Below are positions 3,888-37,141 of a DNA stretch of 64,000 nucleotides, in pieces. The stretch lies in assembly GCF_000807675.2 (NCBI RefSeq), contig NZ_CP019962.1:2046001-2110000 (forward strand), given 5' to 3'. Numbering within the stretch: position 1 is the first letter of the stretch; the number at the start of each line of letters is the position of its first letter. The DNA comes from Eubacterium limosum (lineage in GTDB: Bacteria; Bacillota; Clostridia; Eubacteriales; Eubacteriaceae). A program made the translations under genes and the position numbers. The notes under the pieces are model-generated. The model was given only the letters and a program-made list of their open reading frames with translations. It was not told where the DNA came from and searched no databases.

Positions 3888-5429
3888 ATGAAAAAAGCAG
3901 AAAATACATCAACCACACTGATTTTGATCGGTGTAATGGTCAGCCTTTTGCTGGCGGCCCTTGACTCGACAGTTGTCAGCACAGCGATGAAGCCTATTAT
4001 TGAGGATTTAGGCGGCATGGCCTATTACGCATGGCCCTTTACAGCTTACATGCTCTGCTCAACCATGGCGACGTTAGTCTGCGGCGGTATTGCGGATATT
4101 TATGGTCATAAGCCACTTTTTATGGGTGGTATCATTGCTTTTAGTCTGTTTTCAATGATTTGCGGGATATCCCAGAATATTTTTCAGCTCATTACATTCA
4201 GAGGTCTTCAGGGGATTGGCGGAGGTTTAATCGCAGCCAGCGTATTTACTGTGGTGGCAGATGTATTTCCACCTCAAAAACGAGGGAAATATATGGGGAT
4301 GGTTTCATCAATGTATGGACTGGCCAGTGTCATAGGACCTCTGGCCGGAGGTTTTTTTGCAGATCATTTGGGATGGCGGTGGATTTTTTATATGAATTTG
4401 CCCATTGGTATTGCAGCCGCTGTACTGATTGGTATAGCACTTCCAGGAGTTAAAAACAACCGTGGAAAATTGGATGTATCGGGAATCCTTTTGTTAGCTG
4501 TGGGAGTGGTTCCGCTGCTGCTGGTTTTGAGCCTGGCAGGTAAGGAAATTAGCTGGTTTTCACTTCCCATGAATCTGGCGCTTTTATTCTCGACATTGGC
4601 GATGGTCGGATTCGGTTTTTATGAGAAAAAGGCTGTAAACCCCATTATACCACCATCATTTTTGACTAACCGGGCCATCAGCTTTTCTTTTGCGGTCGCT
4701 TTTTTAGCTCAGTTTGTCATGCTTGCCGCCATTGTTTATCTGCCATATTATGCCCAGGGTGTTATGGGAATTTCAGCAACGGTATCGGGCATTATGACTA
4801 TTCCTATGATGCTGGCCCTGTTGATTGCCAGTAATTTTACAGGCAGAATGATTTCGAAATATGGAAAAGCGCCAAGATTGTCGGTCGTATCCTTTGTCAT
4901 TCTTTTGTTTGGGACGTTTCTGCTTTCGCGTATTGGGTCGGGCACGCCTTACGTGCTAGTGGTCGCGTATATGTCGATCCTGGGGTTTGGCATTGGTATG
5001 AGCATGCCCATTGCAAATGTCAACGCTCAAAATGCCTGCCCACCGCCTCAGATAGGAACGGTGACCTCGTCGGTACTGTTTTTTAGAAATATTGGCGGGA
5101 CAGTAGGATCTTCGCTGTGCGGGGCCATCATGAACGAAGGCCTGGCAAAGGGGATGTCAAATCTGGATGCAGGCAGCCTTCCAGATACCGTTGCTGCTCT
5201 CCTGAAAAACCCTCAGGTTATCATCAACGCAGATGCGGTTGACCAGATTCGCGCAGGTATACCGGCAGCCCTTGGCGATGGTTTTAATATACTGCTGGGG
5301 CAGGCCAAAGCAGTCATTGCACTGTCGGTAGATCATGTTTTTCTGCTTTGTGTGGCAGTAGGTGTTCTGGGCATTGTGGCTTCGTGCCTTATGAAGGAAG
5401 CGCCCCTGCTTTGGAAAACAAGGCCGTAA
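3888..5429 (+). CDS. MFS drug:H+ antiporter, DHA2 (14-TM, EmrB/QacA) family
   Basis: A 513-residue integral membrane protein. The first TM carries [16 protein letters not shown], the DHA2 motif D1 (LDxTVVNxAxP type), and motif A appears as [11 protein letters not shown] at about residues 65-75. The region [19 protein letters not shown] is motif C plus the following loop. Length and spacing fit 14 TM segments. It would export hydrophobic or cationic drugs driven by the proton gradient. A GAAAGGA site precedes the ATG. Control by the adjacent PadR regulator is inferred from the shared operator. The substrate is unknown. Confidence 0.92.
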
Positions 5430-5580
5430 AAAAGCGCCGCCATCTTTAGCATAGCTGCTCCCTTTAATTAGGAATGTGATTTTAGAAGATGCTCTGGCGC
5501 ATATTCACTCAATATTCACGATTTTTGGGAAATGCAGCTTAAATATTGTTTAATCTTTACATATTTATACAGTTTTTCAC

Positions 5581-22900: not shown

Positions 22901-23243
22901 GAATGTCGAAGCAATTAAGGATATTTCAGCCGGCGCAACGATTAACATGCCAGCAGAGCCTGTACGAACCGGTTATAAATTTGGCGGATGGTTTCTTGAG
23001 GCAGAAACATTGATAGCCTGGAATTTCGATGCAGATCATGTCAATGGAAATATGACCCTATATGCAAAATGGACTGCGGATCCAACGAATAATCCAAATA
23101 AAGATGCAAATGAAAAGATAGAAACGGAGAATAAGCTTACAGGCTCTCCTGCGACAGGTATTTTTTCAGAAACCTCTATATGGGTTATTGCCCTTGTAGT
23201 CATGGCTTCTGGGATTGTCCTTGCTATTAGAGTAAGAAAGTAA
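19932..23243 (+). CDS. Wall-anchored beta-helix protein with InlB-type repeats
   Basis: A 1103-residue exported protein. I start at ATG 19932 (AAAGGAG seven bases upstream) giving a clean signal peptide, residues 1-35 (MRSKSLKARTMITVLSAIGL to VLAEDN). Residues about 40-420 are a right-handed parallel beta-helix, rich in N-x-T/S turns and GGGGAMSF-type steps, as in pectate-lyase-like adhesins. Then come six full InlB B-repeats (Listeria-Bacteroides repeat, YTVTFDSQGGS ... GWYKEAET ... TLYAKW) preceded by one divergent copy. The C-terminus is SPATG, a TM segment and RVRK, a variant sortase signal. It is probably an adhesin or wall-ligand protein. It lies upstream of the pheromone system but ends at its own terminator. 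Confidence 0.88.
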   Translation: MRSKSLKARTMITVLSAIGLLFISIIAPITVLAEDNVSVSTVSALQQAVDQAEDNQTIVLSDDFVFSDAAINMPDKNVVIDGRGLIWSMSTFTVSGNGNGSLTIKDFKFDGSNIAGTCLTNKTGNGTLLIDHTEIFNASTGAIGIAATGNAKTVISYTKIYNNESNNIGAAINISGNNTTPIEINNATIENNTGNGAGYECGAIAGKFYSGNLRINNTVFRNNVNNCANSGVTGGGGGAMSFHYLRGNIAIDESYFQGNKTNGTEASAASTYDGGAIYIFDGRDGATFTVDQSTFDSNLAYDDGGALLVQGTGNPGLTTTITNSTFFNNRAYGLNGGNRSGGAIQFFKNGGSSKMTNTVTGCTFVGNQSGNEKTTVEQRGGAIGLSGAGVLATATVTNKDCLFLGNKVYDATGQINNASNYKDVSSTSTLQEGASNVLNADKGAAPKYTTKMILGVDTPRLTDNLSQITAGVDEEVVKTIPIKPEGIADNTNTSSDLPIEDQRSFERYKDNGAVEMSWAKYNANGGEWKNLPDIVYQGDEYYEKDSEGAVENYFMVCYKDGTVTPPENPVRDDYIFEGWKNQETGIIQKEWPFVLGDNITFEAQWTPVEYTVTFDSQGGSAVAPMTNVASGALVTEPEEPTWEGQIFGGWYKEAETTTPWDFASDTVTGNVTLYAKWTPVPRYTVTFDAQGGSAVAPMTNVASGALITEPEEPTWEGQTFEGWYKEAETTTPWDFASDTVTGNVTLYAKWTPVPRYTVTFDAQGGSAVAPMTNVASGALITEPEEPNYEDWFFEGWYKEAETTTPWNFAADTVTENITLYAKWSKILSYTVTFDSQGGSPVAPITGIVPGNAITEPENPTYENFIFKGWYREAECLTPWNFTQDMVNNNITLYAGWQPAVLTLYTVTFDSQGGSSVDPIQNVNAGSNILEPEAPKMEGFVFNGWHKEPECINPWDFDNHTVNEDTTLYAKWYAIPISETYTVIFDSQGGSNVEAIKDISAGATINMPAEPVRTGYKFGGWFLEAETLIAWNFDADHVNGNMTLYAKWTADPTNNPNKDANEKIETENKLTGSPATGIFSETSIWVIALVVMASGIVLAIRVRK
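21759..23074 (+). repeat. Six tandem InlB-type coding repeats
   Basis: Units begin at 21759, 21978, 22197, 22416, 22641 and 22869. The first four starts are exactly 219 bp apart; later units are 225 and 228 bp. The first three are almost identical at DNA level while units 4-6 have diverged, which indicates recent duplication or gene conversion at the 5' side of the array. Confidence 0.95.
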
Positions 23244-23352
23244 AAATAACAATAATTTATGCCTGAACAGCAGTGTTTTGTTTTAAGTGGGTCGCGAAAG
23301 CATTCATTAAAAAAGGAACTAGGCATAAGAAATAAGAAGTTAAAAACCTTAC

Positions 23353-23391
23353 AGCCCATTGGAGATTTCCAATGGGCTCTTTATTTTTTTC
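23353..23391 (+). terminator. Terminator after the surface-protein gene
   Basis: AGCCCATTGGA and TCCAATGGGCT form an 11-bp stem, followed by CTTTATTTTTTT. Confidence 0.88.
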
Positions 23392-23459
23392 AGCTTTACA
23401 TTTTTATAAGATACTTTACGCTAGCGATAAAAAAGATTTCCGTAGGTGATTTGTGCAAA

Positions 23460-23501
23460 TTCAACAAATTAGTTGAATTAATCTGTAAGAAGGTTTATAA
23501 T
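23460..23501 (+). promoter_or_regulatory. comX promoter with overlapping dyad (candidate ComA site)
   Basis: TTGAAT (23473-23478), 17-bp spacer, TATAAT (23496-23501). The perfect inverted repeat TTCAAC-N6-GTTGAA at 23460-23477 runs into the -35 box, a position suited to an activator touching RNA polymerase. ComA of Bacillus also binds a 6-bp dyad, though of different sequence. Confidence 0.65.
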
Positions 23502-23538
23502 TTAAACATAATAAAAAAGTATTTTAAGGAGGAAAAAC

Positions 23539-23703
23539 ATGGATATTACTTTAAGACAAGATCTTACAATGTGGGAAATCATTAAGTCAGTTAAAGCCGG
23601 AGAGACGGTATTAAGCGATTGGGAAAGATATCTTGATGCTGAAGATTATCAGGAACTGAAAGCGAGCTTTGAAAAGACCAGTAAAAAACCGCTTTGGGAG
23701 TAA
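23539..23703 (+). CDS. comX: ComX-like isoprenylated pheromone precursor
   Basis: A 54-codon gene with an excellent AAGGAGG site seven bases before the ATG and the stop three bases before the comQ-like gene. The peptide begins MDITLRQDLTMWEIIKSVKA and ends KTSKKPLWE, with Trp as the penultimate residue. ComX precursors are about 55 residues, have a helical leader and carry near the C-terminus a Trp that ComQ prenylates. Size, Trp position and a middle that recalls ComX (a helix, then GETVLSDW, then an acidic helix) all fit. Sequence identity to Bacillus ComX is low, as usual for this hypervariable peptide, so the call rests on context. Confidence 0.78.
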   Translation: MDITLRQDLTMWEIIKSVKAGETVLSDWERYLDAEDYQELKASFEKTSKKPLWE

Positions 23704-23706
23704 ACG

Positions 23707-24615
23707 ATGTCTTCTGTCGAATTGGCAAAAGATTCATTGAATGAGCAGCTCGAAGATAGTGAGGCGGAATTAGTCGAGAGGCTTGGCCTCGAAGGGTATT
23801 TATATGTAAAACATATTTTTCAGAAAAAAATACTCAAAACAGGAAGCTGGGGCGTCTTTTCGTCATTGTTAATGCAGGTCCAAATTAGAAAAAGTCCTTC
23901 AAAGCAAATGATGAAAAGCGCCTTTTTTATTGAATTATTTATTATAGCGACGGATTTTGTGGATGACTATATGGATGGTGACAATGAGGCTTTTAATGAT
24001 ATTCAGGATCGTCGGCGAATTACGATCCAATTATTAAACTATGCATTGGAGCAGCTGCTGGAATTACTGCCAGCGAATATAAAAAGGCATTTTATGAGCA
24101 ATCTTGAATCATCATTAACGCATCAGGTGCTGGAATCGAAATATCAGCTTTATTTTTCGACATCTGAAGCGTTTTATTTTCGGCACACCATTGAGCGCTC
24201 TGTCTATCTGATTTACGCTATGGTTATAGCAATTTTGAAAACAGCGCAAAAAGAAGTATTACAATTTTCATATTTCTGGGGGGCTTACGGTCAAATCGAA
24301 AATGATATTAATAATATCGAAAAAGGCAGTTTCAGCGATGTATTAGAACGAAAACCAACACTGCCGATAATAAAAGCTTTTGAGAGCATATCGTCAGACA
24401 ATGCCTTTTATGACGTTTATTTTTCGTACATTATTGGCTCTGATAAAAAAGAAACTCAGAATATCGCAAAATACATTCTCAACTCTGGCGCCATTGAATA
24501 TTCAAGAATGCTTTCAAATAAGTGTTATCTGAAAGCCTTAAAAATTCTTTCAGATCTATATCCAGGATCTGAGAGAATGATAAAAGAATTTGACGATTAT
24601 TTTGTAAAGAGGTGA
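23707..24615 (+). CDS. comQ: ComQ-like isoprenyl transferase
   Basis: A 302-residue all-helical protein of the polyprenyl synthase fold. The first aspartate-rich motif is DFVDDYMDGD (DDxxD near residue 85), and the second-motif region is YGQIENDINNIEKG (near 200), which keeps the Q-x-x-x-D pattern found in ComQ. ComQ prenylates the conserved Trp of ComX with geranyl or farnesyl diphosphate and is needed for its processing and export. It begins three bases after comX, with GGGAG as ribosome site inside the comX end. As a stand-alone prenyl synthase it would be unusually divergent. Confidence 0.85.
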   Translation: MSSVELAKDSLNEQLEDSEAELVERLGLEGYLYVKHIFQKKILKTGSWGVFSSLLMQVQIRKSPSKQMMKSAFFIELFIIATDFVDDYMDGDNEAFNDIQDRRRITIQLLNYALEQLLELLPANIKRHFMSNLESSLTHQVLESKYQLYFSTSEAFYFRHTIERSVYLIYAMVIAILKTAQKEVLQFSYFWGAYGQIENDINNIEKGSFSDVLERKPTLPIIKAFESISSDNAFYDVYFSYIIGSDKKETQNIAKYILNSGAIEYSRMLSNKCYLKALKILSDLYPGSERMIKEFDDYFVKR

Positions 24616-24619
24616 TACA

Positions 24620-26641
24620 ATGAGCAATATTAAAAAAGGTTCATTTCTATTGATTGTTTTATCAATATCTCTTTTTTGTCTTTTTCTTTTATCGGAAATG
24701 CAGCTTACCATTGCAGACTCTTTCAACAAAATATCTTTTGATTTATACTTTGTCTTTTTTTTGAATTTCCTGGCGGTTCATTGTGTTCTGAATACACATG
24801 AAAATATATCGGTATACCTTTTCGGTCTGTTACTTTTTTGGTTTGGCTGGATATTTGAATTTTCCTGGTTTAGTCCTCCGATATTTACCGAACTGCGATA
24901 TTTTCTGATGTTCTTCTTTTCATTACTATTAGTTGCGTTCTATATTAGTCTTTTTGAGGATATTCGGTCGAAGAATGTCATTAAATTAATGATCATACAA
25001 GGGATTCTTTCAATTGCTTGCCTGATATTTTACGGCAGGTTTGCAGATCACCTTAATGCGTTCCTGTTTTTTATCAATATTGTCGGCGCCATTGCATTGT
25101 GTATTTATTACTCATATACACACTTGTTGGATCAGACTTCAAAACGATTGGTCAGCTTGATCATTGCCGGATTATTGTGCTCTGTTTTGCCATATCTGCT
25201 GCTTACATTTGTGCCGACTTTTTTGCTGACATCCTTCAATCTACCAACTATTGGAAATTGGACTTTGTATTTTCTACTAATTCTGCCCATTGTATTTAGC
25301 GTGATCCTGAACAAGCGGAATCTCAGCATTGAACAAATTGGCATATTTCGATACCCTGTAAATCTTTTGATTTTGACGGTCGGTATTGCGAGCCTTAACT
25401 TATTAGCTGTTTTTATTTTAGAAATACCTGTTTTGTCAGTGATTATCATGAATTACTTTTTTGTCATTTTATATGTGATTTACTATGCTATTGCAGCTAA
25501 CAACGTTAAAATCCGACAAGAAAAACTAAAAAAAGTGTTGAATAATTTTCAGGAAGAGCGATTGGACATTTTCAGGCAGCTGTTTGCAGATGACCAGTTG
25601 GAAAAAATTGGGATTCTAATGCTGGATCTTGTGAAGAGCAGTATTCCCTTTACTGGCGGCGCAATTACGATTGCCAAAAACCGCAAAAACGAAGTATACA
25701 TTGTGCGCTCAGGTGATTTGGAAGATCTGACTTTAGGAAATATAGAGGGGAAAGCCGGATACGTTCATGAACTGAAGACATTCCCTTTCAAAAACGTCAA
25801 TTGTATTTCGTTACCGCTAAATTATTTAAATGATCGAATTGGAAGCATTACCTTATCAAGAGCCTCGTTTTCCTTCTTTACCTCAGAAGAGTTAGAAGTT
25901 TTAGAAAAATATACACAGATCTTGTCAGAAATGTTAGTGACAAGCCTGAGGATGGCTGAATACGAAAGGAATAGTGTTAAAACAGGATTCACGGCTGAAG
26001 AGCGGTTGATTTATCTTAAAACTGCCGACTTGGCTGAACAAGATAAAAAAAGATTGGCGACTTATTTGCATGATGAAATCTTGCAAAAGATTTTTGGTAT
26101 TAAAAATTTACTAAGTACGCTCCAAGGCCCGGATGAGACAAAAAGATTGATGATGGATACGTTAGAAGAAATAAATGTTTCGCTGCGCAAACGAATGACT
26201 GAGATGTATCCAGCCTTTCTGAATGTGACAACTTTGGAAGAAGCCATCATGAATTTAGTCGAAAAAAGCAATCAATTCTACCATAAAAACATTCAGATGG
26301 ATCTTTTGGTAGAACCCAATTTACAATTAGGCCAGAAACAAAGACATATGATCTTTCGAATGGTTAAGGAACTCGTTATCAATGTGTATAAACACGCTGG
26401 AGCAACGAGCATTGTTGTTGAAATATTAAAAGATAAAGAGATGATTGACATCACTGTTCAGGATAATGGGGTTGGTATCAACCAAACAACGTTTCAACTA
26501 ATTGATGTCCTTCAAAACCATTTAGGCCTGGCGTCCATCAAACAAGAGGTTTTTTTTCTGAATGGCTTCTTTGAGATTAAAAATTTAAAGAATCAGGGAT
26601 TAGGCATTGAAATATCAATTCCGTATATCAGTGAGGAGTAG
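24620..26641 (+). CDS. comP: ComP-like membrane sensor histidine kinase
   Basis: A 673-residue kinase. Residues 1-290 contain about eight to ten TM segments without a large external domain, as in ComP. A GAF-like linker follows (about 320-455), then a HisKA_3 dimerisation helix with LATYLHDEILQKIFGIKN (His near 482) and a HATPase_c domain with KELVINVYKHAG and DNGVGI. This is the NarL/ComP/DegS class, matching the LuxR-type regulator three bases downstream. It should detect the modified ComX peptide. The four genes have gaps of only 2-4 bp and no internal terminator. Confidence 0.88.
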   Translation: MSNIKKGSFLLIVLSISLFCLFLLSEMQLTIADSFNKISFDLYFVFFLNFLAVHCVLNTHENISVYLFGLLLFWFGWIFEFSWFSPPIFTELRYFLMFFFSLLLVAFYISLFEDIRSKNVIKLMIIQGILSIACLIFYGRFADHLNAFLFFINIVGAIALCIYYSYTHLLDQTSKRLVSLIIAGLLCSVLPYLLLTFVPTFLLTSFNLPTIGNWTLYFLLILPIVFSVILNKRNLSIEQIGIFRYPVNLLILTVGIASLNLLAVFILEIPVLSVIIMNYFFVILYVIYYAIAANNVKIRQEKLKKVLNNFQEERLDIFRQLFADDQLEKIGILMLDLVKSSIPFTGGAITIAKNRKNEVYIVRSGDLEDLTLGNIEGKAGYVHELKTFPFKNVNCISLPLNYLNDRIGSITLSRASFSFFTSEELEVLEKYTQILSEMLVTSLRMAEYERNSVKTGFTAEERLIYLKTADLAEQDKKRLATYLHDEILQKIFGIKNLLSTLQGPDETKRLMMDTLEEINVSLRKRMTEMYPAFLNVTTLEEAIMNLVEKSNQFYHKNIQMDLLVEPNLQLGQKQRHMIFRMVKELVINVYKHAGATSIVVEILKDKEMIDITVQDNGVGINQTTFQLIDVLQNHLGLASIKQEVFFLNGFFEIKNLKNQGLGIEISIPYISEE

Positions 26642-26643
26642 CT

Positions 26644-27246
26644 ATGAAATTAATTTTAGTCGATGATCACGAGCTTTTTTCAATGTCATTGAAGACTGTT
26701 TTAGAGCAATATGACAATATTGAAAAGGTCATAACATTAAAAGATTCAAGCAATTTACTTGGGATACTGGCATGTGAAAACATTACGTTGGTAATGCTGG
26801 ATATACATTTAAAAGATGAGAATGGCTTAGAGATTGGAAAAGATTTGAAAAAGAAATACCCTGAAATGCCCCTGATCTTTTTAACCGGCTTTGATTTAAT
26901 GGATTATAAGTATCAGGCATACGAAATAGGGGCAGAGGCTTTTATAGATAAAGGAATTCCACCGGAAGAACTTTATCAAACGATTAATGACGTTATCAAT
27001 AATCCATCCGTAATGCGTGACAAAATAAAACCGAAAAAACCCCCTTTTACAGAACGAGAAGTAGAACTGCTAAAGCTTTTAAGTAAAGGGAAGAAACATA
27101 ATGAAATTGCGGATAATCTTGGGATAAGCCGAAGGACTGTGGATGCTTTGCTCCAGCGAATTTACATCAAAATGGATGTAGACAATGCGACCGGCGCAGT
27201 GGTACAGGGCATTAACATGGGCTTAATTAAAATGGAAAAGCTGTAG
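26644..27246 (+). CDS. comA: ComA-like response regulator, NarL/LuxR family
   Basis: A 200-residue regulator. The receiver domain (1-120) has VDDHELF with the acidic pocket, the phosphoacceptor Asp in MLDIHLKDENG (near 57) and LTGFD with the conserved Thr. The LuxR HTH (138-200) reads FTEREVELLKLLSKGKKHNE and GISRRTVDALLQRI. It is cotranscribed with the kinase. By analogy with ComA it would bind a dyad as a dimer; the TTCAAC-N6-GTTGAA repeat in the comX promoter is the obvious candidate for positive autoregulation. Confidence 0.88.
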   Translation: MKLILVDDHELFSMSLKTVLEQYDNIEKVITLKDSSNLLGILACENITLVMLDIHLKDENGLEIGKDLKKKYPEMPLIFLTGFDLMDYKYQAYEIGAEAFIDKGIPPEELYQTINDVINNPSVMRDKIKPKKPPFTEREVELLKLLSKGKKHNEIADNLGISRRTVDALLQRIYIKMDVDNATGAVVQGINMGLIKMEKL

Positions 27247-27402
27247 AGCGAAAACTTGAGTATCTTTGAGAAGTGTGAAAGGGACTGGTCAAAATTACTG
27301 GCAGCAGAAAAGGTTATAGAAAGCTTCATGTAAATCAGCGAGGTAAAGTTGTGTGTTTTCAAATGATTTTGTGATGAAAAAACATCGTTTTTTATAAACA
27401 AA

Positions 27403-27440
27403 AAAGCCAGAATGTTCTTAAACATTCTGGCTTTAAATCA
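27403..27440. terminator. Bidirectional terminator between comA and the NEAT protein gene
   Basis: A perfect 14-bp stem, AAAGCCAGAATGTT with AACATTCTGGCTTT, loop CTTA, with A/T tracts on both sides. Confidence 0.9.
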
Positions 27441-27469
27441 TTTTAAAACGTGGATTTTACCATTTAAGA

Positions 27470-30400
27470 CTACTTATTGGAAGATTTTTTGCGTTTAAAT
27501 ATGAATCCACCGGTTAAGGCGCCCGCTGCGGCAAGGAAGGCTGCGGCGACACCGAGATTGGTTTCATTGTTTTCAATGCCAGTTTTGGTATTAGCACCTT
27601 TTTGGGACGAATTTGATCCAGATGCGGCATTTCCATTTAATGTGTTGTTGCCGAGATTATTATTTGTTCCAGAATTATTGTTTGATCCAGCGTTTCCGCC
27701 CGGTGTGGTGTTGGGCTTGTTATTATCTTCGCCACCATTTGGTGTCTGATCTTTTTCGACCAGAGCCTTAATGGCGTTATCCAGGTTTGTTACCTGAGTA
27801 TCAACATCGCTTTGTGTCGCATCGGTTTTGTCGATGATGGCCTGGGCGGCATCAATGGCAGTTTGTAAGGCTTTTAAGCTGTCTTCTGTGTATTTATCCG
27901 TCTGTGCTGCCAATTCTTTTGCTTCGGTCAGTTTGGTGTTTAATGCGGTCTTGTCGACACTTACTGGCGCTTGAATTTCTTCCAGTGCGTCGATAGCTGC
28001 CTGGAGGGCTTCTATCTGAGCGTTAATGTCATCTTGAGAGGCAGATGGATTGTTGGCAACTGCGTTTGCTAAATCAAGAGCATTTTGAAGAGCTTTGAGG
28101 CTTTCAGCTGTGTATTTGTCTGTCTGAGTAAGCAATGTCTCTGCTTCTGTAATTTTGTTCTGTAAGTCTGTTTTTTCAGATTTAACCTCGATATTTTCAT
28201 AATCCAGGGTTAACCGAGCGACCTGGTCACCGGAAGAGAGGGTTCCCATTGCCGGTACATAAACATGAACCCAGGTTTCAGTTTGATTTGGAACGACCTG
28301 AAGTTCTAAAATTTTTGGATAAGGCTTGCCGGCAGCGTTCGGGTCGGCAGCACCCTCAGGTTTATTAAAATCATCGACGACATCATAGTATTCGATATAA
28401 TTTGTTTCCAGGAATTTTGAATTTTTCCAGTCGAGGATATTTGTCGATGTCATGACTGTATTTTCTGGATCTGCAACTTCCATACTTAACAGATATCCAT
28501 TAAGATTTGCAATTGGAAGCGGAACCATTTCTAATTGTAGGGTGCCCTTACCATCTTTAATGGACAAGGTACCGCTGTTATCCTTGATGGCTTTGTTGCC
28601 CATGGAATCCTGTCCGGGAGTGGTGGCGTGCATTAAGGTTACCGGCAGGGTATATACGCCGTCTCTTAAGACCGTGCCATCGTCAACCAGAGAGGCGATG
28701 GCAACATCCAAGGCGTTAACCTGTGTGTCAACATCAGCCTGGGAGGCTTTATCATTGTTTAACACTTCTTCAGCTTTCTGGATTGCAGCTTGTAACGCCT
28801 GATAGCTTTCATCTGTGTAACCTTCTGCTGTGATCGCTTTAGCTTCATTGAGCTTTTCGGTTAGAGCTGTTTTATCTGTTTTTTCCTGTTCGTCTTCCTT
28901 AACCAATGCCTTTACAGCATTATCCAAGGCAAGCACCTGTGCATCGACATCGGCCTGAGTAGCGTCTTTATTGTCGGCAACAGCCTGTGCGGCTGTGATT
29001 GCATCCTGTAGAGACTTGAAGGATGCTTCGGTATATCCGTCGGCTGTGATCGCTTTAGCTTCATTTAATTTATCATTTAATGCAGTTTTATCGACCTGAA
29101 CTTCATCACTGCCATCAGCTTTTTTGAGATTATCATAGGCGGATTGTAATTTTTCAGTAGCAGCTTTGATTTCTTGGTTGCTCACTTTGTCAGATACGAC
29201 AATTTTGTAGGTTTCATCGTACACACTGCTCAGATTATTGATAGAATCTTCGGTGTATTCAGCGCGGCTAATTGGATTGTTTAAAATAAGGCCTGCTTCG
29301 TCAGCAAGATTTTTGAACAGATCCGTGTAGGTAACCAGATGGTCATCAGCGTCATAGATCGAATTCAGTGCGGCGTCAATTTCATACTGAGAGTTAGATT
29401 TTTTATAAGTTTTATTGGCTGCGTCGTAGGCATCGACCATTGCTCTGGCAGATTCTTCGGTGTAACCGGATTTGAGCAGGCCATTATAGTCATTTCTCCC
29501 GATTTCTTCGCAGCGGTCCAGCAAGGTTCTTAAATCGGTTTTATCGACCTGAATATCGCTGGTCTTTGTAGCATGTTCATAATCTACGTCGAGATAAGCG
29601 GTGTTTTGGTAGTAGGTGCCGTCGGTAGATTTTCCGTTTTCATCGATCATATGATATCTAAAAGTGGTATCCTTCGCTTCAGGCTGGGAAGGAAGTTGAA
29701 GAACAACTTCCAGAGGAACTTCCTTGGTTTCACCGTTTGCTAAAGTGACCTCTTTCATGTTTGAGCCTTCAACCCAGTAACTGTCATTATCACCGATATG
29801 CTGACCATTTCCGTTGGAGATGACCAAATATGGGAATGTATCTTTATCTTTAACCGAAAGAGTTAACGTTGCTTTTCCATTGTAGATTTTTACTTTCATC
29901 TTTTGAGAAAAATCAATTTGATCATTTAAAGCGGTGCTCTCTACAAGGTTATTGTTTTCATCCATTTGTTTTGGTGTGACCGTTACTTCATAGATCCCAT
30001 CTTCAACGACTTTTCGTTTAGGATAAAGCTCGTCTTTCCAGGTGGCGGATTCGTTTAGTACACGGCGGCACTGAATTGCATCGCCAGTTTCTGCCGTCTC
30101 ACGCCCATTGGCAACGAGACGGGAAAATGCATTCCAGGCGCCAGTCAGATAATTATCTTTTTCTGATTCCAATGCTTCACATTCTTCGACCACTTTCATC
30201 AGTTGTTCAGAGTAAGAGGCAACGCCATCCTTGGTTATCAGCCCATTGAGCGCTTCATTCCATTCATTCTCAATATCAACGACATCTGCATCTGTACAGT
30301 CCGCGCTGTTCATAAAGTCGAAGTAACCATAGCAATCTGTTAATGCGGCCCAGCTTTCATCGGTAAAATCGCCTTGCGTTTCTTCCTGATAACCTTTCAT

Positions 30401-31342
30401 TTTATTGATCACTTTGTTTTTGCGCAGATGGTATGAGCGTTGATTATAATCGCTGCTCAGACCTTTATTGATATATTCGATGTTAGAATTATCTGGATTA
30501 ATGCCATAATTAATATAGTTTTTTGCATCCATCAGGTCTTGCTGGAAAGTGTCTGCATAGGAGTCGCTGTAATGCTCCCAGTTAATATTGTTTTCAAACT
30601 GTTCAATATACCATTCAGTCATTTCTGTCCCGGAGAAATCTCCGACGCTGCCATTAAGCACTTTGACATTACTGTAGTCAAAGCCAACCAGCGCTGTGAC
30701 AACGGTCCCCATCATGTCAACATAAGGGCTGATGCCAACCAGTGGATCGCCGGAGGGAAGCTTGAAAGAAACCTGTTCGTAGTTTGCCCCCCTTTTGCGT
30801 TCCACTTCAACTTGCTGCGGAAGATTTTCATAGCCTGGTTTACGGGCAGCCCAGTCATACATATCTTGTGTTGTGTTAAAATAGGTCATTCGCTGCAGAT
30901 GACCATACTGCCCAGCATAATCCATTCCATGGAACTGGAGCTTAACGGTTGCCTCTCCATTCTTGTCAACAACAATATAAGCGGTGTGTGTGAGTGCGGG
31001 GTTTCCCATTGAGTAAGTATTATCTTGATCCGAATTATACAGATAGACCGGTACTTCCAGAATGGTGTTATAGTAATCCGTACGGTACTGACTAAAATCA
31101 ATAGCCTGTGTTGGACGTTTGGCTTCCTCTGGTATATTTTCATAATCCGGATTATAACAACCAGACGGGCTGCCATCATCATGCTCGGCCGCAGCCGAGG
31201 TTTCGGCATTAACGGTCTGAATAAAATTTGTGATCGACTCTTGTGCCGCCACGGTTGTCAATGGAACGACCGCTGTCGGTGCAAGCATTGACACTGTTAG
31301 AACGGTAGTCATACCATGCTGTAGTAGTTTTTTGAATTTCAC
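27470..31342 (-). CDS. Wall-anchored heme-binding NEAT/FIVAR protein
   Basis: A 1290-residue surface protein. The signal peptide is residues 1-34. NEAT-type beta domains lie at about 90-235 (with TYSMGNPAL) and 893-1055 (YTLPVTLMHATTPGQDSMGN), and a third, more divergent one at 448-594. Between and after them are helical FIVAR modules (about 250-440, 596-885, 1058-1190), each opening with a VDKTALN-type motif. A Gly/Asn-rich linker leads to a sorting signal NTKTG, TM and KRKK. NEAT proteins capture heme from host proteins. The gene is divergent from the DtxR-like regulators, and its promoter has an iron-box-like site. The classical YxxxY heme motif is not seen. Confidence 0.85.
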   Translation of the reverse strand: MKFKKLLQHGMTTVLTVSMLAPTAVVPLTTVAAQESITNFIQTVNAETSAAAEHDDGSPSGCYNPDYENIPEEAKRPTQAIDFSQYRTDYYNTILEVPVYLYNSDQDNTYSMGNPALTHTAYIVVDKNGEATVKLQFHGMDYAGQYGHLQRMTYFNTTQDMYDWAARKPGYENLPQQVEVERKRGANYEQVSFKLPSGDPLVGISPYVDMMGTVVTALVGFDYSNVKVLNGSVGDFSGTEMTEWYIEQFENNINWEHYSDSYADTFQQDLMDAKNYINYGINPDNSNIEYINKGLSSDYNQRSYHLRKNKVINKMKGYQEETQGDFTDESWAALTDCYGYFDFMNSADCTDADVVDIENEWNEALNGLITKDGVASYSEQLMKVVEECEALESEKDNYLTGAWNAFSRLVANGRETAETGDAIQCRRVLNESATWKDELYPKRKVVEDGIYEVTVTPKQMDENNNLVESTALNDQIDFSQKMKVKIYNGKATLTLSVKDKDTFPYLVISNGNGQHIGDNDSYWVEGSNMKEVTLANGETKEVPLEVVLQLPSQPEAKDTTFRYHMIDENGKSTDGTYYQNTAYLDVDYEHATKTSDIQVDKTDLRTLLDRCEEIGRNDYNGLLKSGYTEESARAMVDAYDAANKTYKKSNSQYEIDAALNSIYDADDHLVTYTDLFKNLADEAGLILNNPISRAEYTEDSINNLSSVYDETYKIVVSDKVSNQEIKAATEKLQSAYDNLKKADGSDEVQVDKTALNDKLNEAKAITADGYTEASFKSLQDAITAAQAVADNKDATQADVDAQVLALDNAVKALVKEDEQEKTDKTALTEKLNEAKAITAEGYTDESYQALQAAIQKAEEVLNNDKASQADVDTQVNALDVAIASLVDDGTVLRDGVYTLPVTLMHATTPGQDSMGNKAIKDNSGTLSIKDGKGTLQLEMVPLPIANLNGYLLSMEVADPENTVMTSTNILDWKNSKFLETNYIEYYDVVDDFNKPEGAADPNAAGKPYPKILELQVVPNQTETWVHVYVPAMGTLSSGDQVARLTLDYENIEVKSEKTDLQNKITEAETLLTQTDKYTAESLKALQNALDLANAVANNPSASQDDINAQIEALQAAIDALEEIQAPVSVDKTALNTKLTEAKELAAQTDKYTEDSLKALQTAIDAAQAIIDKTDATQSDVDTQVTNLDNAIKALVEKDQTPNGGEDNNKPNTTPGGNAGSNNNSGTNNNLGNNTLNGNAASGSNSSQKGANTKTGIENNETNLGVAAAFLAAAGALTGGFIFKRKKSSNK

Positions 31343-31804
31343 TTCACATTTCTCCTTACTTTTTTAATACATTTGGGCCATAGGAATTAGGTGTGCCTAA
31401 CTAATATCCTCTATAGTTATAAAATATCTTTCGCGAATTGTCAACAACTGATTTTTTAACGCAAAAAGCGTTTCGTGCTTTATAAGCACGTGTTTTTAAT
31501 GGTGAAAAGATCCGTATTATACCATTTTTTTCGTGCCCGCCAAGCAAGGATTTTTATTTTTGAAATTTTAATTTGCTTGTTCTTTTTTTAGTACATTGCT
31601 TAAAAAAAGAAAACAGGTTATTTGAAGTGGATCATCATACGTTGCAAGAAAATTGTATTAAAAATATTTTAAAAGCAACATGTTAAAAAACAAGGCTTTT
31701 TTTATCAATCATTTTAAGATAAGGGATTGTAAAAAAATCAGAAAGTGGTATCATTGAGTTAGTTGAGCATAACTATGTTAAAAATATATCTTTGGAGAGT
31801 ATGA
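31343..31804. promoter_or_regulatory. Divergent regulatory region of the heme locus
   Basis: Minus-strand promoter for the NEAT gene: TTGACA (31439-31444), 17 bp, TATAAC (31416-31421), followed by the DtxR-box-like TTAGGTGTGCCTAACTAA at 31387-31404. Upstream, 31468-31480 on the minus strand is AAGCACGAAACGC, part of a hairpin-forming palindrome CGTGCTTtatAAGCACG. Plus-strand promoter for the regulators: TTGTAA (31727-31732), 16 bp, TATCAT (31749-31754), with a second box-like site TTAGTTGAGCATAACTA at 31759-31775. Confidence 0.7.
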
Positions 31805-32677
31805 ATGCAAGCAAGTGGCTATTATGACAATTTTGAGCAATGGCAGACAGTTTGTGATGGTTTGTCAAAAAGATGTTTTATAAAAGAAAAAGAATCTGAG
31901 GAAGATTTTCTCGAAGCGGTATGTATCCTGCAGCGAAAGCAAAAGATAACATCATTGACGCAGATATGCGATCAACTGAAAATAGAAAAAACAAACGCGA
32001 AACGATGGAGTGAAAAACTGGAAAGCGAGGGATATTTATATACTGAGGAATCTGGCAGCATTGTACTTACACCCTTTAGACGGATTAAAGGGGAACTGTG
32101 TTTAAAAAAACATCGCTATTTGACAGAATTTTTAAAATATGCCTGTGGTGTTGATGAGAAAAGCGCTGAAAAAAACGCCTGCAGTCTGGAGCATGTTATC
32201 ACGGAAGATGTCTTTATGGGAATCTGTGCTTTTATGCAGCGTGGCGATACCTATGACCGAGTGATGCATGGCAATGATCTCAGTTTTTTATATGCAAACG
32301 GAACATATCAGTTTTTTATGTCCATTTATGATCAGAACAAACGTTATCCAAGGTTGCTGACACCAGAGTTTTATTGGTTCGAGCATGATGTGTTGGCAGA
32401 AATAGATGAGAAAAGCACCCTGTTTTTAAAACCTTCTCCATTAATGCCGGTATCGGCTGAAGCGGGAAGATTTCTTTACGAACAGGATGGAACCTGGAAA
32501 GAGGCTTCTCTGGGCGTAAAGGGCTATGCGATTCCAAGTGATGTTTTTGCTTACCGTATTTGCCGGAAAGCGCCGGTAACGGAGGCTGAGCTTAAGATTG
32601 CAATCACAGATCAGAAAAACTGGTGCGAAAAAACGTTGGATATTCGTGAATTGATTGTTCATTTGTGGCAGATATAG
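31805..32677 (+). CDS. DtxR-family-like metal-dependent regulator with an extended C-terminus
   Basis: A 290-residue protein. Residues 30-155 match the DtxR/MntR pattern: a winged helix (EDFLEAVCILQRKQKITSLT to LTPFRRIKG) and a dimerisation helix set with LTEFLKYACGVDEKSAEKNA and SLEHVI, whose Cys, Glu and His correspond to the metal-site residues of the family. The C-terminal 130 residues are not an SH3-like domain I recognise. The gene sits between two heme-protein genes and is preceded by an iron-box-like site. It probably senses iron (or manganese) and represses the locus and itself. Confidence 0.75.
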   Translation: MQASGYYDNFEQWQTVCDGLSKRCFIKEKESEEDFLEAVCILQRKQKITSLTQICDQLKIEKTNAKRWSEKLESEGYLYTEESGSIVLTPFRRIKGELCLKKHRYLTEFLKYACGVDEKSAEKNACSLEHVITEDVFMGICAFMQRGDTYDRVMHGNDLSFLYANGTYQFFMSIYDQNKRYPRLLTPEFYWFEHDVLAEIDEKSTLFLKPSPLMPVSAEAGRFLYEQDGTWKEASLGVKGYAIPSDVFAYRICRKAPVTEAELKIAITDQKNWCEKTLDIRELIVHLWQI

Positions 32678-32687
32678 GGGCAGTAGC

Positions 32688-33512
32688 ATGAAAAATCCGA
32701 CGGTTTTACAAATTCGTTATCTGGAAGAACTTAAGCATCTGCAGGACAGTGGCGAAAAATGTTCGGTGGTGAAAATTGCCCAGAAAAATAATGTCACACA
32801 TGGACCTGTTAGCCGCTTTTTAAAAGAATGTATGCAAAATGGGTATTTGACAGAGGAGTACCGTTTGACTGAAAAGGGTGAAACATGGCTGACAAATTAC
32901 ATCAATATACGAGAAGATCTCAGAGATTATTTAATACGCGTTGGAATAGAAGAAAGCGAAATTGAAGATAATATACGTGATATGATCGAGAACATGTCAC
33001 TTTCAACACTTAATACAATTTTACTTCAGGAAAAAATACAACAGAAACAAAACTATTTATTGTATCATCAAAAGGGAGGCGTAAAGGTTTCTGCCCAGAA
33101 TGTCAAAGAATTTATCCCAATTGGAAAATATCCGGTTAACTTCTTGTTTTTGAAAGCCAGCAGCCGAGGAAAAAGTCGTTCAATGGCCGATCGGGGATTT
33201 GAGAAGCCTGCGCTTTTACGCCGTAACCGCCGGGGGATATGGCTGGAATTAACGACGCGGGAAATGAAAGAGACTTCAAGACAGACTGGGAAAGTGCTTT
33301 CAGGGCACTTGAAAAGTATGAAGTACGAATCGGAAAGCACGCTTAAGGAGTTATCCATAAAGAATGGGAAGGTCAAAATTCCTTTTGAAGCATTTCGCTT
33401 TATATGTCTGCAAACGGGACAGTTTATCGGCGTTTTGTACGCGGCATTATCCTGTAGTGTTGGGGAAAGGCATATGCCTGAAAGCACTGCGCAGATGATT
33501 TTTTGGATATAA
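32688..33512 (+). CDS. Second DtxR-like winged-helix regulator
   Basis: A 274-residue protein starting MKNPTVLQIRYLEEL at ATG 32688, with AGGGG upstream. The N-terminal winged helix (VVKIAQKNNVTHGPVSRFLK, LTEKGETWLTNYINIRED) and following helices are laid out as in DtxR. However, the metal-site motif is degraded: the Ala-Cys-x-x-Glu-His segment seen in the upstream gene is replaced by ESEIEDNIRDMIENMS. The C-terminal half is basic with no recognised domain. It is 10 bp after its partner and cotranscribed. It may be a heteromeric partner or may respond to another signal; that is inference. Confidence 0.65.
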   Translation: MKNPTVLQIRYLEELKHLQDSGEKCSVVKIAQKNNVTHGPVSRFLKECMQNGYLTEEYRLTEKGETWLTNYINIREDLRDYLIRVGIEESEIEDNIRDMIENMSLSTLNTILLQEKIQQKQNYLLYHQKGGVKVSAQNVKEFIPIGKYPVNFLFLKASSRGKSRSMADRGFEKPALLRRNRRGIWLELTTREMKETSRQTGKVLSGHLKSMKYESESTLKELSIKNGKVKIPFEAFRFICLQTGQFIGVLYAALSCSVGERHMPESTAQMIFWI

Positions 33513-33520
33513 TCATAAGG

Positions 33521-33562
33521 CTTTCTAAAAAGAGTGAATACTCTTTTTAGAAAGTTTTTTTG
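33521..33562 (+). terminator. Terminator of the regulator operon
   Basis: A 15-bp perfect stem, CTTTCTAAAAAGAGT with ACTCTTTTTAGAAAG, then eight T. Confidence 0.92.
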
Positions 33563-33869
33563 TTGCAAAATAAATTTATAAAAAATTTTTTTACATAAAA
33601 AGCCCGAAGCTGGTGCCTTACAGGCACATAAAAAAGTTAGAGGAATCGTGTCTTTTGTTTTTTTAATGCGGTGCTCATTAAGCACGAAACGCGTTGAAAC
33701 GCAAATTCAAGCAACTTGACAGAGCTTTAGGTCCGTGGTAAAAATAAACTAACATAGTTAGCTTAAACTTAATACCGACAATCAGGAGGACAGTTTGAAG
33801 TGGTTTGTACATAAGATTTGAAGCACAGTTCAAAAAAGAAATTTGATAAAAGAATGAAAAGGTGGAATT
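33563..33869 (+). promoter_or_regulatory. Promoter region of the right-hand heme operon
   Basis: Promoter TTGACA (33716-33721), 17 bp, TAAAAA (33739-33744). The box-like site ATAGTTAGCTTAAACTTAA lies at 33754-33772, just past the expected start. AAGCACGAAACGC at 33680-33692 ends 23 bp before the -35, the same element and spacing as in the left-hand NEAT promoter; it too follows a GTGCT half to form a dyad. Another hairpin (GTGCC/GGCAC) lies at 33614-33628. Confidence 0.7.
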
Positions 33870-36137
33870 ATGAAGAGTAAAAAAGTAAGCCAAAAAATAA
33901 AAACAACGGTTTCGGCAGCCGTTGCTGTCACCATGGCCTTGCCAGGTATCGCAAATGCCCGGGAATTGCCGTCAGCAACCTATTCTGATGCCAGTGCAGA
34001 GAGTGTGCAGATACAAGCGTGCTCAAACACAGTAGACAAAAGTATTTTAAAGGATTTAATTACCCAGGCAGAGGGGCTGGATACCAGTCCCTTTTCTGAC
34101 GCTGGCGTGGCTTTTTTTAATGCGGTTATCGCTTCGGCTGAAGCGGTCGCTTCAGATGTGGAAGCTACTCAGGAAACGATTGATCAGCAAGTTAAGCTTT
34201 TGGAGACATCATCCGCTGCATTGGTAGAAAAGCCTGAAGATGGGAAAATTTACGATGGTGTCTACAGTATTTCAGGACGTATGTGGCACGCAACTCAGGA
34301 TCAGCCTTCTATGGGAAATAACGCGCTGGCACAACCCATGGAGTTGACGGTAAAAGATGGAAAAACATCTCTGCGGATAAAATTTCAATCATTGACAGTT
34401 ATTGGCAATTTGACCGGAAATCTTGCGAAATTGAGTTATTTTCCAAATGTGGATAAAGAAACAGTTCCTAATGCATCCGATGCAGTGCCTGTGACGGTTG
34501 AAAGCCAGTATGATTTTTATGATTCTTTCAATGACCCCAATAAAGGAACGGATAAAAACATTAAAGGAGTGCTTTATCCAGAGTATGTGAGTATGCCGGT
34601 TGATTTGAATGATGAAGAAATATGGGTGCAGGTCTATGTCCCTGTCATGGAAAGCGTTTCTGCCGGGAGTGGGACGCAACTCGCGCGGCTGCAGCTGGAT
34701 TGGGATACACTTTCCCAGACCAGGGGCACCAAAACAGATAAAACGGCTTTAACGGATTTGATTAACCAGGCAGAGCAGCAAACTCAGGGAGCCGCCTCTG
34801 ACACTGTTTATCAAGTGCTAACCCAAGCCATCGCCTCTGCAAAATCGGTTAATATGAATATGAATGTAGACCAAAAAGCAGTGGACGCAACGGTAATCGC
34901 GCTTCAAAGCGCCATTGACGCCATGCCAAAAGCAGTTGTTGTCGATAAAAGCATTCTTTCAGCCCAGATTACATCTGCCAGGGCTATCGGAAGGGATGAT
35001 TACTCCGAAACGTCTTATCAGGCGCTGCAAGCGGCCATTGTAAGTGCGGAAAATATGTACGATAATCCCGATGCAACAGAGGCAGAGGTTGAAAAACAGA
35101 TTGAGCTGATTCGGGCAGCCATCTCCGGCTTGGCTGTTAAAGAGGCAGATAAAGCCAAATTGGCAGAAAAAATAGCGGAAGCGGAAGCCATCGAGGGCTC
35201 TCAGTACACCGATGACACCTACAATGCGCTTAAAGAAACCATTAAGAGCGCCAAAGGTATTTATGACAGTGCGGCCGCCACACAGGAACAGGTCAATGAA
35301 CAGGTAACTGCGCTGGAGTCAGCCCTAAGCAATCTCGTGGAAAGGCCACTGGATATCAACCATTTGGCTGATGGCATCTATGCAGTAACAGGAGATATGC
35401 AGAAAGTGGATAAGGTGACACCATCTATGTCCAACGAGGCTATTAACCATACGTTAAAGCTGACCGTAGAGGATGGAAAATATACGCTATCCATGGATTT
35501 TAAAGGGCTGAAAATCAGCAGCCAATTTGGATATCTCGGAGCGCTAAAATACTATAAAACAGGATACAGCATGGATCAATACGGAAATCCCATTGGCGAA
35601 CTGGCAGATGTCACGGCTGAATCTTACCAGACAAATGAAGACGGTACCCTTATTTCAGACACATTCGGAACGAACTATCCGGATATTATCAGCTTTGAAA
35701 TGATTTCTGAAGCCAGAGAAGATGGCTATGTACCACTCCAAGTGTTTGTGCCGATTATGGAAAATATTTCTGCAGGAACCGGAACGCAATCTGTCTTTTT
35801 ACATTTGGATTGGAACAGTCTTAAAAAAGCAACGGCTGATGATCTTGGATTCACCGATACCAGTACGCCTGGAGAAACAGAAGGATCAGGCAACAAAACG
35901 GATACAGGCATTGGCAATACGCTCAAAAGCAATTCGCTGGGAAAAAGCAGTTCGCTGAGTAGCGGTTTAAGCGGATCGGGATCAAACCTAAATAAAAACA
36001 CAGCCGCAGGAAAAAATGCAGCCACCGGAATTCCAGGTCAACAGGGGATGGCCACTGCCGCCACTTTATGTGTGACCGCTTTGGCAGGTGCTGTTGGCTT
36101 TATTGCCAAAAAAAGAAAAGAATTGGACAGTAAATAA
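33870..36137 (+). CDS. Wall-anchored NEAT/FIVAR heme-binding protein
   Basis: A 755-residue exported protein, first gene of the heme operon. Signal peptide 1-27 (ending NARELP). FIVAR module about 50-118, NEAT domain 126-290 (MWHATQDQPSMGNNAL; YVPVMESVSAGSGTQ), FIVAR modules 294-490, second NEAT 498-650 (TPSMSNEAINHTLKLTVEDG; FVPIMENISAGTGTQ), a Ser/Gly/Asn linker, then NAATG, TM and KKRKE as sorting signal. Both NEAT domains carry SM-x-N but lack YxxxY. It would take heme from the left-hand NEAT protein or host proteins and pass it to the Shp-like protein encoded next. Confidence 0.87.
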   Translation: MKSKKVSQKIKTTVSAAVAVTMALPGIANARELPSATYSDASAESVQIQACSNTVDKSILKDLITQAEGLDTSPFSDAGVAFFNAVIASAEAVASDVEATQETIDQQVKLLETSSAALVEKPEDGKIYDGVYSISGRMWHATQDQPSMGNNALAQPMELTVKDGKTSLRIKFQSLTVIGNLTGNLAKLSYFPNVDKETVPNASDAVPVTVESQYDFYDSFNDPNKGTDKNIKGVLYPEYVSMPVDLNDEEIWVQVYVPVMESVSAGSGTQLARLQLDWDTLSQTRGTKTDKTALTDLINQAEQQTQGAASDTVYQVLTQAIASAKSVNMNMNVDQKAVDATVIALQSAIDAMPKAVVVDKSILSAQITSARAIGRDDYSETSYQALQAAIVSAENMYDNPDATEAEVEKQIELIRAAISGLAVKEADKAKLAEKIAEAEAIEGSQYTDDTYNALKETIKSAKGIYDSAAATQEQVNEQVTALESALSNLVERPLDINHLADGIYAVTGDMQKVDKVTPSMSNEAINHTLKLTVEDGKYTLSMDFKGLKISSQFGYLGALKYYKTGYSMDQYGNPIGELADVTAESYQTNEDGTLISDTFGTNYPDIISFEMISEAREDGYVPLQVFVPIMENISAGTGTQSVFLHLDWNSLKKATADDLGFTDTSTPGETEGSGNKTDTGIGNTLKSNSLGKSSSLSSGLSGSGSNLNKNTAAGKNAATGIPGQQGMATAATLCVTALAGAVGFIAKKRKELDSK

Positions 36138-36163
36138 TGCTGTGTCTTCAGAAAGGAAAATAT

Positions 36164-37141
36164 ATGAAAAAGCCAAAGCGTTTAACGAAATTTCTGACAG
36201 GCATCCTGGTACTTATATTTACCATATTAGGTACGGGTATCAAAGCATTGCCTGTGAATGCCGCTAGCGGAACGGTTTATACGGCTGTTATTCATCCCTG
36301 TTATGCGCATCCAGTCACAGGTGCCATTGAGGATTCAGGGGGCGAGGCATCCTACGCAACAGGACAGGGGATGGTCGATGGTGCTGTTTATACCAGCGGG
36401 ATTTTAGAAGTAACAGACAGCGGGGAATATTATCTGACCATCCGTATGAGCCTGATGGACTACACATCTAATCACAGCTTCATGGTTCAAAATGTCGGCG
36501 ATTCCGGCTGGTCCTCTCCGTCCATGGGTGTTACAGGTAATGGATCTGACAATAATGGGTCAACCGCGGATATTTGTATTCAGGTTCCCAGTGAAAACTG
36601 CGTTGTCCGTGGGTCCATGTATGTTACGCCAATGGGACGGGATGTGGTTTTTTACCTGTACCCCAGCGACTATGCAGCTGGCAACAATACAGACATGAAT
36701 GCAACGATGGTAACTTCGTCAGGCGCAGCCGCACCAGGGAATGCATCCTCCGGTCAGTCGGCGGCAGGCGGGTCGTTGAGTTCAGGCGCTGGTGCGTTGC
36801 AGAGTAACGCTGCCGGTAATACCGCTGGAAATGCAGCGCAGCTTCAAAGCAGTATTACTCAGGCCGCTCAGCCCACCGCACAACAGGGGCAGGAAAGTGA
36901 AGGAGAAACCAGCCTCAATAAGGAAAAAGGTCTGGGGCTTTCCACAGAAGAAGAGACAGAGGAAGAAAGCGGTTTTTGGGGCGCTTCGGAGAAAAAAATC
37001 GTCGTACTTTTTACGGCCATTACTATTTCAGGTTTGATCTTCCTGGGAGCAGGTGCTGGAATTGTCTATTTGTTCCGTAAAAACTGGTATCGATGGAGCG
37101 GTGGAGGATATAGTGACGATGATGAATGGCAAATTCGTTAA
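36164..37141 (+). CDS. Shp-like cell-surface heme-binding protein
   Basis: A 325-residue protein starting at ATG 36164 (GAAAGGA upstream); an in-frame ATG 27 bases earlier lacks a ribosome site. Signal peptide about 1-38. Residues 40-185 match the streptococcal Shp domain: HPVTGAIEDSGGEASY, GQGMVDGAVY, RMSLMDYTSNHSFMV and GSMYVTPMGRDVVFYL. A low-complexity Ser/Gly/Ala linker leads to one TM near 280-305 and a short tail, so it is membrane- rather than wall-anchored. Shp relays heme from NEAT proteins to the HtsA/SiaA lipoprotein, which is exactly the next gene here. Confidence 0.87.
   Translation: MKKPKRLTKFLTGILVLIFTILGTGIKALPVNAASGTVYTAVIHPCYAHPVTGAIEDSGGEASYATGQGMVDGAVYTSGILEVTDSGEYYLTIRMSLMDYTSNHSFMVQNVGDSGWSSPSMGVTGNGSDNNGSTADICIQVPSENCVVRGSMYVTPMGRDVVFYLYPSDYAAGNNTDMNATMVTSSGAAAPGNASSGQSAAGGSLSSGAGALQSNAAGNTAGNAAQLQSSITQAAQPTAQQGQESEGETSLNKEKGLGLSTEEETEEESGFWGASEKKIVVLFTAITISGLIFLGAGAGIVYLFRKNWYRWSGGGYSDDDEWQIR

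Follow-up and report, generated by a model that had tools for sequence, protein, structure and literature searches.

Does a compact four-gene locus of Eubacterium limosum encode a peptide signalling system of the ComQXPA type, as an earlier note on this DNA had proposed? The locus lies within a 64,000-nucleotide stretch of contig NZ_CP019962.1 (positions 2,046,001-2,110,000; hereafter the window), and its host, an anaerobic acetogen that inhabits the gut, is studied for the conversion of C1 gas. The host genome is a single contig of 4,422,837 bp, which is the genome size listed for E. limosum ATCC 8486 in Table 1 of PMC5651825. Judging from the sequences, we consider it probable that the locus is a ComQXPA-like peptide signalling operon of E. 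limosum ATCC 8486. The interpretation in the earlier note is partly supported.

The four genes are packed on the forward strand as previously placed. The first, X (23539..23703), encodes a candidate signal precursor of 54 amino acids with a penultimate tryptophan (Trp53), and was identified from the open reading frame (ORF) list, from a relative in a congener (genome G024) and from its codon pattern. It is followed by Q (23707..24615), a ComQ-side prenyltransferase-like protein of 302 amino acids, assigned by trees, by motifs and by a PF00348 match below the cut-off; by P (24620..26641), a histidine kinase of 673 amino acids with about 10 transmembrane (TM) segments and without a PDZ match; and by A (26644..27246), a response regulator of 200 amino acids with a LuxR-type (GerE) DNA-binding domain, assigned by domain scan and by alignment with ComA proteins. 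The ORF positions confirm the order X-Q-P-A, with intergenic gaps X-Q, Q-P and P-A of 3, 4 and 2 nt. All four frames are full-length and have ribosome-binding sites, and their GC content is 35.5-37.6%, versus 43.4% for the window. Like known ComQXPA loci, this one thus holds, adjacent and on the same strand, a prenyltransferase, a short precursor with a Trp near its C-terminus, a multi-TM kinase and a GerE response regulator, and their packing with gaps of only 2-4 nt argues for the ComQXPA-like reading.

By analogy with B. subtilis (as described in the accessible portion of PMC4008528) and with the prenyltransferase PalQ (likewise from part of PMC10853753), we infer how prenylation, cleavage, export, sensing, donor supply and all targets could be arranged. 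X would be a ribosomal precursor, and Q would put a geranyl or farnesyl group on Trp53 near its C-terminus, with the prenyl diphosphate donor coming from the housekeeping synthase of the cell. The X tail would be cleaved and then exported. The membrane kinase P would sense the exported tail and phosphorylate A, which, as a LuxR-type regulator, would alter transcription, possibly that from its own promoter too. Elsewhere in the host genome PF00348 finds a single further match, and this ordinary synthase could supply the donor, which also favours the ComQXPA-like reading. If the locus works, the physiology of E. limosum may follow cell density via a prenylated peptide that could be sought by its mass.

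Domain scans were carried out with Pfam and NCBIfam profiles at curated cut-offs. Like ordinary PF00348 synthases, Q belongs to the superfamily and carries a first Asp-rich motif, the DDYMD described previously, with a weak PF00348 match below the curated cut-off. Unlike them, it has neither GGKxxRP nor a true second motif, and no Arg pair follows its first motif. The ComQs used for comparison have two sources. The ComX model matched 6 of 398 Bacillota genomes, 5 of them over the cut-off, and a ComQ profile matched 28 of 73 genomes in the taxonomic order of genome G406; each species is represented by one genome. The 19 ordinary synthases consisted of 17 PF00348 matches of ten genomes plus G563 and G612, the synthase-like L041, L043, L044 and L046 being unused. 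In a 51-row tree, which omits L072, L077, L078 and L079 (truncated, or with no kinase gene adjoining Q), a split with support of 100/99 separates these 19 synthases from the 32 rows of the ComQ side, among which the Eubacterium pair (Q of the window and of G024) falls. The split was repeated at 100/99 in a 56-row tree (35 ComQ-side rows versus 21 synthases), from which one long synthase row was dropped and to which G421, G078 and G516 were added.

The motifs follow the same division. DDxxDxD[NH] occurs in all 35 ComQ-side rows, Eubacterium Q included, and in none of 22 synthases, a count that is partly circular because the Q frames of some loci were picked by a similar motif; those of other loci were chosen by profile. 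A pseudo second motif was found in 34/35 ComQ-side rows versus 3/22 synthases, the true second motif in 0/35 versus 18/22, and GGKxxRP in 0/35 versus 14/22. ComQ is described in the available text of PMC10853753 by the first Asp-rich motif plus a pseudo second motif, and Q of the window has both. Its ComQ-side position in two trees, together with these ComQ-type motifs, argues for the ComQXPA-like reading. Q does not group with ordinary trans-isoprenyl diphosphate synthases, so this refuting outcome named in the earlier note did not occur; trees and motifs reject such an identity, though the score against a ComQ profile would not do so alone. One could also suppose that Q makes a small isoprenoid or is inactive, the adjoining peptide being coincidental and X unprenylated. 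Its high divergence and its PF00348 match below the cut-off would suit such a role, but the trees and motifs put Q with ComQs, and G024 has an X-Q pair too, conservation extending to both frames; we find this alternative quite improbable.

Within the ComQ side, the Eubacterium pair joined the Q-first ComQs with support of 84/76, while neither its joining to the X-first ComQs (p-AU 0.24) nor a position outside both groups (p-AU 0.375) was rejected. In these trees the pair is a separate deep ComQ branch. A single-sequence AlphaFold2 model of Q, in response to an earlier suggestion of structure prediction, had a mean pLDDT of 49.8, and Foldseek with this model returned mostly prenyl synthases (best E 0.14); both were unused as evidence. 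The weak Q-like matches of G563, G612, G516, G421 and G078 were tried as ComQs and found to be synthases by profile or context. Separately, the reverse strand of L138 (5102-6100) encodes a protein that resembles prenyl synthases but has a changed second motif; it lies in a cluster with proteins that read like radical-SAM-type and ABC-transporter ones.

Further insight comes from the congener. Among 40 genomes of the family, Q matches were found in two, the window's own (G000) and G024 (38% identical), with none in the other genus genomes G023, G025 and G026 (the last 80% complete). A search of 67 genomes of the taxonomic order returned the same two. In G024, a 51-amino-acid peptide ending in NASW is followed by Q, P and A, thus in the same X-Q-P-A order at a different genomic site. 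That G024 has the same four-gene unit with a Trp-ended peptide supports the ComQXPA-like reading. Codon-position identities 1/2/3 between the two species are 0.53/0.60/0.35 for Q, 0.47/0.68/0.36 for P and 0.55/0.77/0.39 for A, and X shows the same pattern (0.45/0.69/0.37). The X frame, for which a lack of purifying selection had been named as a possible objection, thus has a coding-type pattern between two species, and the objection does not apply. Because the order recurs elsewhere in a congener and the X frames show a coding-type pattern, the four-gene unit is beyond chance. The IspA proteins of E. limosum and G024 are only about 0.01 changes per site apart, and the loci are therefore far more diverged than the IspA gene. 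On the minus strand of G024 L002 (940-1140), a 66-amino-acid membrane-protein-like frame lies divergent from X.

In the case of X, the C-terminus reads KKPLWE, with the penultimate Trp that had been noted. The two Eubacterium peptides are 35% identical and have Trp12, Trp28 and Trp53 in common (window numbering). ComX is described, in the accessible part of PMC4008528, as having its Trp within the last 5-10 residues; X is such a short precursor beside Q, with its Trp in that range. A different main role for a prenylated peptide, e.g. an antimicrobial one, with P and A only sensing it or serving autoinduction, is suggested by the PalX/PalQ/PalP case. According to the text available of PMC10853753, PalQ of Paenibacillus alvei belongs to the isoprene synthase superfamily and prenylates Trp, and its gene adjoins those of the histidine kinase PalP and of the precursor PalX with a C-terminal Trp, features that the present locus resembles; the G024 peptide also terminates in Trp. 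As far as the description goes, the PalQ cluster differs in its NHLP-type leader, in a conserved second Asp motif and in having three reported genes. PalQ activity was abolished by additional residues at the C-terminus (same source, in part), and in X of the window a Glu follows the last Trp. The kinase-regulator pair is moreover complete, and no exporter or immunity gene is obvious inside the four-gene unit, the neighbours having been scanned in part. Altogether we regard such a different main role as unlikely.

P, described earlier as a multi-TM HisKA_3 kinase, has HATPase_c over the cut-off (E 3.5e-7) and 10 TM segments by a crude hydropathy count, but its HisKA_3 match is weak (E 0.029) and stays below the Pfam cut-off. 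Against a profile of seven ComPs, P scored 107.7 bits and the G024 kinase 118.7, with four other genus kinases at 68-74. PDZ matches below the cut-off were seen in three ComPs scanned (L012, E 0.073; L051, E 0.0031; L015, E 6e-5), and the Pfam scan gave none in P or in the G024 kinase. A is a LuxR-type regulator as stated before, with Response_reg and GerE domains, and is 23-30% identical to seven ComAs, the sole regulators compared.

Several results weigh against a ComQXPA assignment. X had no match to any Pfam or NCBIfam profile and was not recognised by the ComX model PF05952, which is itself insensitive, as it matched none of 14 control genomes and did not detect the X-first peptide of L051 either. 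HMM search and hhalign were both negative for X against ComX, and homology between them was rejected. For P, the best BLASTP matches after the G024 kinase were other genus kinases (E to 6e-28) and then ComPs (E to 3e-22), so that beyond its own type P has no clear ComP as its nearest relative. The full-length profile hinted at homology of its membrane part to ComP, but this part alone scored -0.9 bits, no higher than unrelated multi-TM controls, and did not bear the hint out. In the case of Q, the Eubacterium pair sits on a long branch (2.43), for which the tree program gives a warning of a possibly false long-branch join. The ComQ-profile check that had been proposed does match, with 58.6 bits for Q of the window and 50.6 for that of G024 from a profile of six ComQs, yet the profile alone fails to separate Q from synthases (19 scored 35.5-65.2 bits, three above Q of the window). 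With regard to peptide similarity, X of the window against that of L140 gave a score reached by 1 of 400 shuffles and X of G024 against that of L068 one reached by 0 of 400; each was the best of 33 comparisons and both are suggestive only. X-first and Q-first ComX are weakly related to each other (hhalign E 4.4e-4, probability 34%), and Eubacterium X matches neither in profile comparison.

The gene order had been presented as distinctive, and this did not hold. In the order of G406, 39 ComQ places were found, 30 of which came as loci and were examined: 20 are X-first, one is a probable partial X-first locus (L078), 6 are Q-first and 3 are unassigned (L072, L077, L079). The search for X looked beside Q for small frames with a Trp close to the end, which makes the Trp of those X-first peptides a selection criterion; the peptides resemble one another in alignment. 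In L078, at the end of a contig, a partial ComQ is preceded by a 44-amino-acid peptide frame whose last residues are LWY. A mixed ComQ profile matched 17 genomes of the 398-genome sample, and since G421 and G078 hold ordinary synthases, 15 remain, the window's own included. The loci examined among these 15 are X-first in 11 genomes and Q-first in 5, G406 having both (counts that leave aside a fragment in G346 and another ComQ place in G425). G406 carries Q-first L012 and X-first L051 together, and in L015 and L139 the regulator precedes the kinase (X-Q-A-P). In 391 genomes of the window's class, ComQ was found only in the window's own, G516 being another synthase-like protein. That X-first is usual among other ComQ loci argues for the ComQXPA-like reading. 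As in the order of G406 and a few other genomes, the peptide gene of the window stands just 5' of Q, followed by kinase and regulator. Unlike Eubacterium, these other X-first loci have a separate ComX family and ComQ clade, and their scanned kinases, L051 (X-Q-P-A) and L015 (X-Q-A-P), show the weak PDZ match.

Known ComQXPA loci have been described with comX between comQ and comP, as far as PMC4008528 could be consulted. In the window, X precedes Q and is unrecognised by the ComX model, P lacks a PDZ match and Q sits on its own deep branch. The X-first class would be missed by searches requiring comX between comQ and comP, and such systems may therefore be under-counted. The system outside Bacillus had been taken as new, but Clostridiales were already reported in the 2014 census (PMC4008528), whose accessible portion includes Desulfosporosinus and Syntrophobotulus, and the full pathway is stated to be present in clostridia in the available text of PMC8895600. 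The string comXQPA is printed in PMC8895600 and PMC6334282. Among the matches listed, in a literature search with most subscription journals outside it, neither a description of an X-first order nor a ComX-type system in Eubacterium or E. limosum was found. What is new here, by comparison of the sequences, is the separate deep ComQ branch of the Eubacterium pair, a peptide outside ComX profiles and a kinase that lacks the weak match to PDZ which three other scanned ComPs show.

The two loci of the genus also left traces in their relatives. The sequences that flank the G024 locus share 82-89% identity with stretches that are neighbours of each other in G000, G023 and G025. At this G024-type site, a remnant of about 98 bp in G000 and one of about 88 bp in G023 align with the 3' end of G024 comA, scoring 107 and 64 where 200 shuffles reached at most 30; against comA of the window they score only 27 and 20; G025 has no comA remnant there (score 26). 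Beyond the G023 counterpart of the surface-protein gene upstream of the window locus lie short adjacent fragments matching window comP and comA. They score 67 and 48, where 100 shuffles reached at most 36 and 38, and only 26 and 21 against the G024 genes. At that site no match was detected for X, Q or the promoter region of the window, and BLAST gave no such fragment beside the counterpart surface-protein gene in G024. Remnants of both types imply that both loci were once present together, either in an ancestor common to G000 and G023 or in each of these two, and the decayed sequence shared at the G024-type site makes a common ancestor the favoured option.

Such remnants in G000 and G023, and the lack of a Q match in three of the four other genus genomes (G023, G025, G026), could also mean that the window locus is itself a real but decaying remnant without present function. 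However, the remnants are short fragments, whereas the window has four full-length frames with ribosome-binding sites and coding-type codon patterns, and decay is highly improbable. Tentatively, signalling by tryptophan-prenyl peptides could have a third deep branch in the Eubacterium loci, marked by its own signal family, a receptor free of PDZ matches and an X-first order, and the ancestor of E. limosum and G023 would have held two distinct systems at two sites, of which species now keep one, the other or none. If this is true, the group would document how pheromone systems have turned over naturally among gut acetogens.

Around the operon, a Shine-Dalgarno sequence AAGGAGG (23526..23532, forward strand) was read directly 5' of the X ATG. 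Where a dedicated promoter was claimed earlier, a promoter-like TTGAAT-17-TATAAT stands just 5' of X (23473..23501, forward strand, 10/12 consensus match), but as a consensus match it is not beyond chance, with 11 promoter-like matches in 23200-27500 versus 15.9 expected from shuffles. A perfect inverted repeat, AATTCAAC-N6-GTTGAATT (23458..23479), lies over the -35 and would suit control of the operon as a candidate operator; it was not found in the searched region upstream of G024 X. The word GTGCAA stands 42-43 bp 5' of TATAAT in both species, only these two sites being compared. In G024 the element AAAAAAGATATACGTAAAAAGTGCAA occurs twice (L003, about 5091-5122 and 5427-5458), with one copy just 5' of the X promoter and the other conserved in G000, G023 and G025. 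A terminator-like hairpin precedes the unit (23353..23378, forward strand), and another, terminator-like on both strands, lies 3' of A (27403..27434). The former is contained in an interspersed repeat of about 93 bp (23297-23389) with roughly 80% matches at several places in G023, G024 and G025. Adjoining the locus, 27470-37138 encodes FIVAR- and NEAT-domain surface proteins, together with a haem-binding protein of the Shp type and an iron-dependent repressor domain.

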